A DNA stretch of 64,000 nucleotides from Nocardioidaceae bacterium (lineage in GTDB: Bacteria > Actinomycetota > Actinomycetes > Propionibacteriales > Nocardioidaceae). The stretch covers positions 372,001-436,000 of the forward strand of contig JAGIBL010000001.1 of NCBI GenBank assembly GCA_017744365.1. The letters run 5' to 3'. A program made the position numbers and the translations under genes. Under the pieces are notes generated by a model. It was not told the DNA's origin and searched no databases. It worked only from the letters and a program-made list of their open reading frames with translations. This document shows, piece after piece, positions 19,826 to 22,253 of this stretch; the first letter of the stretch is position 1, and each line of letters begins with the position of its first letter.

Positions 19826-20350
19826 CTAGAAGCCTCCGCCGAGCCCGATCACCAGGGCGGCGCAGCCGGCCGCCCAGAGCACGCTGGCGAACGAGCCGAT
19901 CAGGAACCGCTCGGCCACGTTCTGGTGCTGGCTGAGCTCGGCGAACCGGCCCAGCCCCTTGAGCGCGAGCACCACCGCGAGCCCCTCGGGCCAGCCGGCG
20001 ACCAGCGTGCCGAAGATCGCGGCGCGCTCCATCGCCCCGATCCAGGCGCCGCCGCGCAGGATCTTGCGGGCGGCGTCGACCGTGCCGTTGTCGGCCTGGT
20101 CGGCCAGGTGCAGCACCGCGGCAGTGACCGTGCCGCCACCGAGGACGGCGAGCACGGCCAGCAGGATCGTGGCGAGCGCGAGCTCGTCGAGGTTCACCAT
20201 GTCGGGCGGCTCGAACAGGAACCGGATGCCGAGTCCGGCCACGGCGGCCGCGCCCACGACCGCGCCGAGCTGGTGCACGCGGGACCGGTCGCCGAGGAAC
20301 CAGCCGGGCAGGGTGCCGGCCAGGGCGAGCAGCAGGACCGCGGTGATCAC
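19826..20350 (-). CDS. DUF3307-like membrane protein, partner of the SatD-like protein
   Basis: The 174-residue hydrophobic protein has about four membrane segments (residues 1-20, 28-46, 58-82, 150-170) around a polar core with LADQADNG, GAWIGAMERAAIFG and FLIGSFASVLWA. The IG-x-x-ERAAI and FLIG patterns resemble DUF3307 proteins, which commonly sit next to satD genes; that assignment is from memory of the family and moderate. GTG 20350 overlaps the satD-like stop (GTGA) and has AAGGAG upstream. The pair therefore forms a coupled two-gene operon controlled from the palindrome array in front of the first gene. Confidence 0.7.
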   Translation of the reverse strand: MITAVLLLALAGTLPGWFLGDRSRVHQLGAVVGAAAVAGLGIRFLFEPPDMVNLDELALATILLAVLAVLGGGTVTAAVLHLADQADNGTVDAARKILRGGAWIGAMERAAIFGTLVAGWPEGLAVVLALKGLGRFAELSQHQNVAERFLIGSFASVLWAAGCAALVIGLGGGF

Positions 20351-20949
20351 GGAGGCTCCTTCCCGAGCATCTCGTCGGCCAGCTGGCCGAGCAGGTGGGC
20401 CGCGCGCACGCTCTCGACGTACCCGGCGGCCTGCGCGCGCTGCGAGACCGCCGGTTGGGAGATCCCGAGCCGAGCGCCCGCCTCGGCGTGCGAGAGCCCG
20501 GCGGCAAGGAGGTCGGCCACCTGCCAGCCGGCCTCGCTGCGCCGCGCGAGCAGGCCGCTCAGCAGCATCGCCACCGTCTCGGCCTGCTCGGCACGATAGA
20601 CGTCGGCACCGACGATCCCGACCCGCCCGGGGAGGGTCTTGGCCCGCCCGACCGCGGTCCGGGCGGCGACGAAGGCCGGACCTCGACCGGCCCGGGTGCT
20701 CGCCGGCAGTGGCGACTCGACCGCGTCGATGCCGACGCCGACCTGCCAGCGGCCGTCGCGGAGCAAGGCCTCGAGCACGGCGGCGAGGGTGGCGCCGTCG
20801 CCGAGCACGCCCTGGATCTCGTCGCCGGCGGTGCGGTCGAACGCGCGCAGGACGCCGGGACCGAGGTCCAGGCGCTCCAGGGCGGTGGGGACCGCGTCGG
20901 AGGCCGCCCGGCTGCCGCGCTGGTCCGCGGTCACGACGATGACGTTCAT
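20347..20949 (-). CDS. SatD-like protein with C-terminal helix-turn-helix
   Basis: The 200-residue protein has an N-terminal domain with AGDEIQGVL (residues 41-49), WQVGVGID (68-75) and GPAFVAARTAV, the three conserved patches of the SatD family. The GDE and GxGI pair recalls a cyclase/GGDEF palm, but that is only a resemblance. A helix-turn-helix follows (LSHAEAGARLGISQPAVSQRAQAAG, quoted here only as residues about 154-178). ATG 20949 is the start because AAGGAG lies 8 nt upstream; an upstream GTG at 20958 would bury that site. The start overlaps the first of three ATAAG-N8-CTTAT palindromes, so autoregulation is likely. Molecular function is unknown. Confidence 0.75.
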   Translation of the reverse strand: MNVIVVTADQRGSRAASDAVPTALERLDLGPGVLRAFDRTAGDEIQGVLGDGATLAAVLEALLRDGRWQVGVGIDAVESPLPASTRAGRGPAFVAARTAVGRAKTLPGRVGIVGADVYRAEQAETVAMLLSGLLARRSEAGWQVADLLAAGLSHAEAGARLGISQPAVSQRAQAAGYVESVRAAHLLGQLADEMLGKEPP

Positions 20950-20965
20950 AAGGCACACTCCTTAT
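20948..20965. promoter_or_regulatory. Operator 1 of three, ATAAG-N8-CTTAT
   Basis: ATAAGGCACACTCCTTAT covers the ATG and the AAGGAG ribosome binding site of the satD-like gene on the minus strand. A protein bound here would block initiation as well as transcription. Confidence 0.7.
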
Positions 20966-20975
20966 ACCCAGTCAG

Positions 20976-20993
20976 ATAAGTCTACGACCTTAT
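20976..20993. promoter_or_regulatory. Operator 2 of three, ATAAG-N8-CTTAT
   Basis: ATAAGTCTACGACCTTAT starts exactly 28 bp from operator 1. Confidence 0.7.
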
Positions 20994-21003
20994 GTCTCGT
21001 GAG

Positions 21004-21021
21004 ATAAGGCCGCAGCCTTAT
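21004..21021. promoter_or_regulatory. Operator 3 of three, ATAAG-N8-CTTAT
   Basis: ATAAGGCCGCAGCCTTAT starts exactly 28 bp from operator 2 and is the most symmetrical copy (ATAAGGC/GCCTTAT). Confidence 0.7.
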
Positions 21022-21045: not shown

Positions 21046-21059
21046 TAGAACAGGTTCTA
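21046..21059. promoter_or_regulatory. KstR-type operator
   Basis: TAGAACAGGTTCTA is a perfect 14-bp match to TnnAACnnGTTnnA, the motif of the TetR-family cholesterol repressor KstR in mycobacteria and rhodococci. It lies 11 bp before the -10 box of the SnoaL-like/SDR pair. No kstR gene is in the window. Confidence 0.65.
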
Positions 21060-21081: not shown

Positions 21082-21540
21082 ATGCTGCTCAGCGACGGCG
21101 ACCGGATCCGGGGTCTCCTCGGCACCTACTGCCGGCTGATCGACGCCGGTGACTTCGCCGGTGTCGGTGCCCTGTTCGCCCGGGCCACGCTGCGGGACCC
21201 GTCCGGGACCGTGATCGCCACCGGGGCCGCCGAAGCGGAGGCGCTCTACGCCGCGATCACCCAGCGGCACCAGGACGGCACCCCGCGGACCCAGCACCTG
21301 GTCACGAACACGACCTTCGACGAGGGCACCGGCGAGGACGAGGCGGTCGCGCGGTCGTCGTACGTCGTGCTGCAGGGACTGCCCGGGGGAGCGCTGCAGC
21401 CGATCGTCGCGGGCTCCTACGTCGACACCTTCGCCCGCGACGCCGGCGGCTGGCACTTCACCGACCGCACCTTCACCGTCGGCCTGACCGGCGACCTCAG
21501 CCGGCACCTCACCATCGACCCCTCAGGAGCCCCGTCATGA
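21082..21540 (+). CDS. SnoaL-like / NTF2-fold protein
   Basis: The 152-residue protein has the cone-shaped NTF2-like pattern: an N-terminal helix pair (IRGLLGTYCRLIDAGDFAGVGALFA), LRDPSG, a helix with YAAITQRHQDG, TQHLVTNTTFD and a final beta hairpin with WHFTDRTFTVGLTGDLS. Members of this clan include SnoaL-type cyclases, ketosteroid isomerases and dehydratases. Position behind a KstR-type box and coupling to an SDR (ATGA overlap) suggest a role in steroid or related ring degradation, possibly as hydratase or isomerase. The substrate is not shown by the sequence. Confidence 0.8.
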   Translation: MLLSDGDRIRGLLGTYCRLIDAGDFAGVGALFARATLRDPSGTVIATGAAEAEALYAAITQRHQDGTPRTQHLVTNTTFDEGTGEDEAVARSSYVVLQGLPGGALQPIVAGSYVDTFARDAGGWHFTDRTFTVGLTGDLSRHLTIDPSGAPS

Positions 21541-22253
21541 ACCAGCGCATCGTCGTCGTCACCGGGGCCGGCTCCGGGATCGGGCACGCCACCGCGGCAC
21601 TGTTCCGTGACGCCGGCGACCTCGTCTACGGCCTCGACATCGCCGGGGCCGTGCCCGACGGGGTCGCCTCCCGCGAGTGCAACGTCGGTGACCGGGCCTC
21701 GGTCAAGGCGGTCATCGGTGCCATCGGCGAGGAGCACGGCCGGATCGACGTGCTCGCCAACGTGGCCGGCGTGGTGCAGTTCGGGCGCTTCGACACGATC
21801 ACCGACGAGCAGTGGGACCGGGTGCACACCGTCGACCTCAAGGGCCCGTTCATGACGATGCAGGAGGCGCTGCCGTACCTGCGGGTCGCCAAGGGCAACG
21901 TCGTCAACGTCTCCTCGGTGGCCGGCCGGGTGCCGCAGGCGTACACGGTCGCGTACTCGGCGGCCAAGGGCGGGCTCACCCAGCTGACCCGGTCGCTGGC
22001 CCTGGAGCTCTCGCCCGAGGGCATCCGGGTGAACGCCGTCTGCCCGGGCACGGTGGACACCCCGATCGTCTCCGAGGTGGCCGCGATGTTCCCGCCGGAC
22101 CTGGACCCGCGGGTCGCCGACCGGCTCATGATGATGCTGCCCGGCCCGGCGATCTCCCCGGCCGAGATCGGCGCCTCCATCGTCTACCTGGCCTCGCCGG
22201 CCGCCCGGATGATCACGGGTTGTGTACTGGCCCATGACGGCGGCATGTCCTAA
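21537..22253 (+). CDS. Short-chain dehydrogenase/reductase
   Basis: This 238-residue classical SDR has the cofactor motif TGAGSGIG near the N-terminus, NVAG, the catalytic Ser in NVSSVAG and Tyr-Lys in YSAAKGG, and a PG motif in VCPGTVDTP. An acidic residue after beta-2 (GLDIAG) suggests NAD(H) preference. It is translated as a pair with the SnoaL-like protein. Under a KstR-type operator a hydroxysteroid or hydroxyacyl dehydrogenase role is plausible but only inferred. Confidence 0.9.
   Translation: MNQRIVVVTGAGSGIGHATAALFRDAGDLVYGLDIAGAVPDGVASRECNVGDRASVKAVIGAIGEEHGRIDVLANVAGVVQFGRFDTITDEQWDRVHTVDLKGPFMTMQEALPYLRVAKGNVVNVSSVAGRVPQAYTVAYSAAKGGLTQLTRSLALELSPEGIRVNAVCPGTVDTPIVSEVAAMFPPDLDPRVADRLMMMLPGPAISPAEIGASIVYLASPAARMITGCVLAHDGGMS

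Follow-up and report, generated by a model that had tools for sequence, protein, structure and literature searches.

Genes of the SatD family (PF16264) owe their name to the streptococcal ‘secretion and acid tolerance’ gene satD, and they figure chiefly as acid-tolerance genes about which little is understood. In regulators of the PucR/CdaR type, such as BAD_0249 and MabR (Rv2242), a GGDEF-like domain is joined to a helix-turn-helix (HTH). In classical multi-operator autorepressors, for example at OR of phage lambda, several palindromic operators lie over the repressor's own promoter. PMC11323703 describes satD as essential in emm1, emm28 and emm49 strains of S. pyogenes, though it is an accessory gene, and links the S. 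mutans satD to acid tolerance; in PMC5786311, satD appears in a table. A further candidate source on SatD, PMC4886424, was rejected: it deals with DUF2652, not with SatD. The literature matches listed, whose coverage leaves out most subscription papers and preprints, hold no description of a SatD operator or of DNA binding by SatD, in agreement with the original prediction, which knew of no described operator for this family.

The locus presented here lies in a window of 64,000 nucleotides (the whole stretch of DNA that was analysed) from a Nocardioidaceae bacterium. Its SatD-like protein shares with PF16264 SatD proteins the D..xS and GDE motifs and a C-terminal HTH, and the PF16264 paralog in the same genome likewise has a downstream membrane-protein gene and a 28-bp array; in contrast, the window protein has no Pfam SatD match, and its palindromes have a centre of 8 rather than 7 bases and other arms. 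With Rv1264 and Rv1900c, two adenylyl cyclases of class III, it appears to have in common the invariant Asp ending strand 1, the GDE in the strand 2–3 hairpin and the invariant Arg, whereas the fold similarity is E 1.6e-3 or worse with a TM score of ~0.4, and the Asn of N-x-A-A-R is found in 0 of 126 proteins. The combination of a degenerate palm domain and an HTH in a one-component protein recalls the PucR/CdaR-type regulators, which are among the fold matches of the window protein, but at an rmsd of 13.7–15.8 Å, with the domains not superposed as a unit. Unlike autorepressors of the phage lambda OR type, SatD features a fixed 28-bp step across families, arms and centre length.

We propose that the SatD-like protein is a one-component autorepressor, with dimers on phased operators over its own two-gene operon; on the sequence comparisons given below, the probability of this reading is put at roughly 0.8. 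With the conserved array, SatD-type proteins of actinobacteria gain a molecular function that can be tested and a likely direct target, their own operon with the membrane protein.

The palindrome array and the satD-like promoter region

Three exact ATAAG-N8-CTTAT palindromes, to which no strand is assigned, are arranged with a start-to-start step of 28 bp. Operator 1, the gene-distal one, is at 21004–21021 (ATAAGGCCGCAGCCTTAT); operator 2, in the middle, is at 20976–20993 (ATAAGTCTACGACCTTAT on the plus strand) and contains the predicted −10; and operator 3, the gene-proximal one, is at 20948–20965 and extends over the ribosome binding site (RBS) into the first letters of the start codon. In the 4,757,382-bp genome the exact pattern has three matches, all at the satD-like locus, and a scan allowing one mismatch returns again just the same three sites; the reversed control pattern gives 0 and 3 matches, respectively. 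The pattern search thus confirms the three palindromes and the exact 28-bp period that had been claimed, and adds that they are the sole matches in the genome.

The pitch of the DNA helix is 10.5 bp per turn. A step of 28 bp is then 2.67 turns and rotates adjacent sites by ~240 degrees; neighbouring sites are therefore not on one face of the DNA. Cooperativity between proteins lined up on one side of the helix, as suggested in the original prediction, is rejected on this pitch, as same-face sites would need a step of 21 or 31.5 bp. Dimers on the array would instead form a spiral round the DNA, not a row on a single face.

The satD-like gene (20347–20949, minus strand) encodes 200 amino acids, and its likely start codon, an ATG at 20949–20947 on the minus strand, overlaps the gene-proximal palindrome. 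An RBS, AAGGAG, was read directly at 20958–20963 (minus strand), 8 nt before the ATG and within the left arm of operator 3, so that one palindrome does cover the RBS and start codon, as originally described. Translation could also begin at a GTG at 20958, though less probably, because several relatives, L006, L007, L019 and L020 among them, lack an in-frame start ahead of the codon that corresponds to the ATG.

A candidate −10, TAGACT (20979–20984, minus strand), occupies the offset-9 register of the palindrome, in which TANNNT is commonest among the SatD-like relatives (20 of the 64 loci used). A weak candidate −35, TTATCT, read by eye, lies 17 bp upstream of it on the same strand, and a second TANNNT-type hexamer, TAAGGT, is found at 20992. 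A sigma-70 consensus scan of the array region reported no promoter. In 13 of the 64 relatives, TTG is followed after 16–18 bp by TANNNT, with the TTG at offset 14 of the preceding palindrome; with the TTG at offset 14 and the TANNNT at offset 9 one palindrome further on, the 28-bp step produces a 17-bp spacer. In the PF16264 type the TANNNT peak is at offset 6 (14/16 loci), and a TTG-type −35 is seen in just one of the 16. These register counts use 64 of the 109 SatD-like loci and 16 of the 17 PF16264 loci that are described in the following sections. As in an autoregulatory repressor, the palindromes lie over the gene's own promoter, here a predicted one, and they are kept with the gene.

Conservation of the array in SatD-like relatives

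SatD-like relatives are present in 11 of 24 genus genomes, 82 of 197 family genomes and, by profile search, 96 of 345 class genomes, the own genome being counted in each; at their weakest end the counts take in PF16264-type SatD or short HTH matches. Another 54 named SatD-like loci add to these, mainly from the genera Rhodococcus, Williamsia, Gordonia, Arthrobacter, Kocuria and Demequina. The upstream regions of the relatives have the same layout with other arms: TCAAG in Rhodococcus, Williamsia and Gordonia, ACAAG in Arthrobacter, and further types with GCAAG or GAAAG and with ATTAG or ATCAG.

Filtering at 65% identity reduced 125 SatD-like upstream regions to 109, and 20 PF16264 regions to 17; an earlier SatD-like set of 80 regions came down to 69. 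Rows left out were L001–L003 (copies of the window locus), L086 (a duplicate of L085), L011 (start mis-called), and L085 and L088 (short ORFs), together with the PF16264 loci L095 and L097 (no ORF found), L106, L140 and L141.

In the first set of 69 regions there are 106 exact N8 palindromes with 5-bp arms, compared with 17.0±4.0 after shuffling, and at least one is found in 58 of the 69; the 109-region set has 171, compared with 32.8±5.7 in shuffles. A pair with similar arms occurs at a distance of 28 bp in 69 of the 109 loci, of 29 bp in 12 and of 56 bp in 17, while shuffles give at most 1.3 per distance. A scan of periods from 20 to 39 over the same loci has a single sharp peak at 28, with a mean best score of 18.0 against 14.6–15.3 for the other periods; the mean score at period 56 is 15.9. 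A 28-bp phased pair, defined by a score of at least 18 of 20, is present in 76 of the 109 SatD-like regions (own included) and in 1 of 545 shuffles. Seven of the 33 regions below this threshold reach 18 at 29 bp, two are nested Kocuria arrays, and many others (L013–L034) are in the window's own family.

Together with 16 of the 17 scored PF16264 regions, these counts answer the comparison of ortholog upstream regions that the original prediction had set as its test, and its view of the palindromes as likely protein-binding sites for the satD-like operon gains the support of phased arrays in relatives. The array observation is real and stronger than first claimed. The comparative evidence gives good support to a role of the palindromes as operators for the satD-like operon.

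In the two nested Kocuria arrays (L081 and L084), the arrangement is ACAAG-N8-CCGGT-N10-ACCGG-N8-CTTGT, with the 28-bp step kept; outer ACAAG/CTTGT arms enclose inner CCGGT/ACCGG arms, and each array is self-complementary at 38 of its 46 positions.

PF16264 SatD genes and the paralog in the same genome

The sole PF16264 match in the own genome is a paralog on another contig (L089). It is followed by its own membrane-protein gene, whose product, when the two are aligned, is 35% identical to the membrane protein encoded in the window. At the start of the paralog an imperfect TTAAG-N7-CTTCA and a TGAAG-N7-CTTCA lie exactly 28 bp apart; since the arms of this operator (TGAAG) differ from those in the window, the two systems may avoid cross-talk.

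Among the scored non-redundant PF16264 loci, 16 of 17 have a phased pair with a 7-base centre at 28 bp, the exception being L103, compared with 0 of 85 shuffles; a second period peak is at 56 bp. With a centre of 7 instead of 8 bases the step is unchanged at 28, and the constraint thus appears to be on the step rather than on the palindrome. That both palindrome types retain the step suggests a fixed assembly of the protein along the DNA. Six distant PF16264 loci (L090–L093, L098 and L101), which were scored separately and are outside these counts, have no clear array: their period-28 scores are 15–17 with N7 and 15–18 with N8, the full score being 20, and the DNA of L090–L093 is A/T-rich. Upstream of L101, AGCA occurs twice, 28 bp apart, and a similar pair was seen by eye in L098, neither of them significant; both loci encode divergent SatD proteins of 279 amino acids as called.

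The SatD-like protein

The window protein is modelled as a class III cyclase-like domain (~residues 1–115) and a C-terminal HTH (~154–174). Although it has no PF16264 match in Pfam, its homology to the SatD family is found through close relatives: of the 45 sequences in the SatD-like alignment, the window's among them, 38 have a PF16264 match at E≤1, the best at 1.6e-7, and the SatD-like profile also recovers PF16264-type loci, for example G595, G292 and G707. The HTH assigned to the gene in the original prediction is seen as a modelled element at the residues given above, but not at the level of Pfam, where all HTH matches of the window protein fall below the curated cut-offs.

Across both groups, GDE is present in 126 of 126 proteins (these were partly located by GDE, and the count is not independent), D..xS in 123 of 126 and the AR motif, G.[AG][FYW]..AR, in 122 of 126. 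The alignment of 45 sequences shows no variation at D9, G42-D43-E44 and R97.

The structure model of the window protein (pLDDT 96.9) shows a cyclase-like domain followed by helices that include the HTH. In a Foldseek comparison with the PDB, Rv1264 and Rv1900c are among the best matches (probability 1.00, E 1.6e-3 to 8.6e-3, TM ~0.4), and there is no match at E≤1e-3; with this probability, and at E values of 1.6e-3 and above, the modelled domain appears to have the cyclase fold. Aligned by hhalign with five class III cyclases of the own genome, the protein gives a local E of 1.1e-4 (Prob 56%) over a segment that takes in the GD site and leaves out the first Asp; D9 is aligned with the cyclase Asp only in a forced global alignment (Prob 3.7). 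In the model, D9 and D43 appear at the expected secondary-structure positions. A search of PDB sequences with the SatD-like alignment gave 33 matches up to E 10, of which the best are HTH segments and none are cyclases.

None of the 126 proteins has the pattern of the transition-state Asn known from class III enzymes, and the Arg is retained (R97). The lack of the Asn pattern makes canonical cyclase activity doubtful. Nucleotide binding is plausible, and the cyclase-like domain would point to a nucleotide signal.

Recognition helix and half-site

The residues that open the recognition helix co-vary with the half-site. This was followed in 117 of 126 rows; in the rest, the half-site consensus does not end in AG or there is no helix match. 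At helix residue 1, Gln goes with A (26/30), Arg with G (15/16), and Lys, Pro, Ala, Glu or Val with T (67/71). Gln–A and Arg–G are classical residue/base pairing chemistry. At residue 2, Gln is accompanied by C in 69 of 76 rows (A in 5, T in 2), and Ser or Pro by T in 24 of 41 and G in 16, 15 of these 16 being PF16264-type rows.

A Fisher test on the 94 SatD-like rows (69/2 vs 1/22) gives p 4e-18 with kinship ignored. After allowing for descent the association is not significant: Gln/A is represented by 5 independent pairs on supported branches (median p 0.125), with a mean of 4.2 in the same direction and 0.1 in the opposite one, Arg/G by 2 pairs and Gln/C by 1, on a tree made by a quick method with a simple model and the HTH left out, which gives this test low power. 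The helix may follow a simple code in which Gln, Arg or another residue at position 1 reads A, G or T, and, in the SatD-like set, Gln at position 2 reads C and Ser or Pro reads T. The natural pairs of helix and half-site variants can be used for recognition studies.

The membrane protein and the divergent neighbours

The membrane-protein gene (19826–20350, minus strand, 174 amino acids) overlaps the satD-like stop by 4 bp at its start (ATGA), and this overlap is found in 68 of 81 loci. An ORF of at least 110 amino acids lies beside the satD-like stop in all 81, with at least three hydrophobic stretches, by a crude count, in 78; L031 and L078 score two stretches but have a similar C-terminal sequence, and at L059 an unrelated ORF was picked. 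The motifs GG..IG..ER, K.L.R and E.F..G are invariant in 39 aligned partner sequences, window included. A Pfam search with the membrane protein gave nothing up to E 5, and Foldseek of its model (pLDDT 82.8) against the PDB gave no convincing match, the best being helical bundles at E 0.59. A similarity of the protein to DUF3307/SatE was considered as well and gets no support from the Pfam scan. A reading of the locus as a defence system, with a Pycsar-like cyclase and a membrane effector, was considered and rejected: PADLOC has no match up to E 1 for the satD-like protein, its partner or the paralog pair.

On the other side of the array, divergent genes for a SnoaL-like protein and a short-chain dehydrogenase (SDR) occupy 21082–22253, between satD-like and dapB. 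At the same-family loci L005–L034, dapB is on the divergent side in 26 of 30, and SnoaL or SDR is present in 0 of 30 in the flanks examined; from this gene order, the pair is likely to be an insertion of a small catabolic pair. The array is retained while the divergent neighbour changes, which assigns it to satD-like rather than to the SnoaL/SDR pair.

A perfect 14-bp palindrome, TAGAACAGGTTCTA (21046–21059), lies between the array and the SnoaL-like gene and fits the KstR-type motif TNNAACNNGTTNNA. Close variants of it (GAACAGGTTCT) are found upstream of satD-like in the genus relatives L005, L006, L008, L010, L011 and L012, where the divergent dapB adjoins.

Proposed mode of action and alternatives

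The palindromic sites and their restriction to one locus, the phased conservation, the association with the HTH sequence, the coincidence with elements that resemble a promoter and the operon of two genes are seen in the sequences themselves. Binding, dimerisation, repression, cooperativity and a ligand are the parts that we infer in proposing an autorepressor. The N-terminal class III nucleotide-cyclase-like (palm) domain would probably sense a nucleotide-like ligand and bring about dimerisation, with the HTH at the C-terminus. One dimer would occupy each 18-bp palindrome, and two or three dimers, 28 bp apart, would be wound round the DNA, masking the −35/−10 region, the transcription start, the RBS and the start codon. 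The satD-like and membrane-protein genes would be kept off in this way until the ligand frees the operators. Bound operators would block the polymerase, the start site and the RBS, which makes autorepression the simplest reading; many actinobacterial relatives keep the same 28-bp array, and the protein therefore very probably represses its own operon. A wider picture is tentative and on balance improbable: SatD proteins would be widespread cyclase-fold repressors that sense or make nucleotides, and the 28-bp spiral of dimers and the co-transcribed membrane effector would be parts of a compact nucleotide-signalling switch.

The 28-bp period might be set only by promoter geometry (a −35, a 17-bp spacer and a −10), with independent dimers that do not touch each other. 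The SatD-like relatives offer some grounds for this, as TTG at offset 14 (13/64) and TANNNT at offset 9 (20/64) make exactly such a spacer. We nevertheless consider it rather unlikely, since third sites are common in the chains (58 of 109 SatD-like and 13 of 17 SatD loci, by a loose 6-of-10-letter criterion without a shuffle control), PF16264 loci have their second peak at 56 bp, and the 28-bp step is kept though the centre shortens from 8 to 7 bases and the register of the −10 moves.

That the array is occupied by a DNA-binding protein other than the SatD-like one is improbable, even if the HTH matches of the window protein all lie below the Pfam cut-offs and the association of helix and base is confounded with descent: the array goes with both satD-like and SatD genes in many actinobacterial groups, a scan of this genome with one mismatch allowed finds no further copies, and the arm sequences change along with the HTH encoded next to them. 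Control of the SnoaL-like and SDR genes at 21082–22253 would suit a position between two divergent genes; it is very improbable, given that the 30 loci L005–L034 lack both genes in the flanks examined, that genus relatives such as L005–L008 and L012 keep the array, and that the distal palindrome ends 60 bp from the SnoaL start codon. A secondary effect of the array on these genes is possible. One palindrome does lie over the RBS and start codon, which might suggest RNA hairpins acting as an attenuator or in translational control. With arms of just five A/T-rich pairs, two sites at or upstream of the predicted promoter and an arm sequence that varies with the HTH, this idea is hardly credible, and autorepression by the SatD-like protein is preferred.

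Individual records

Two of the records sampled are unusual. In L042, from a record named Kitasatospora arboriphila, the satD-like protein and its upstream region are nearly identical to those of Williamsia muralis (L040 and L041), possibly through contamination or a mislabelled record. In Demequina litorisediminis, the same upstream sequence is found near both ends of one contig (L085 and L086), with a satD-like ORF of 138 amino acids; this is possibly an assembly overlap plus a frameshift.
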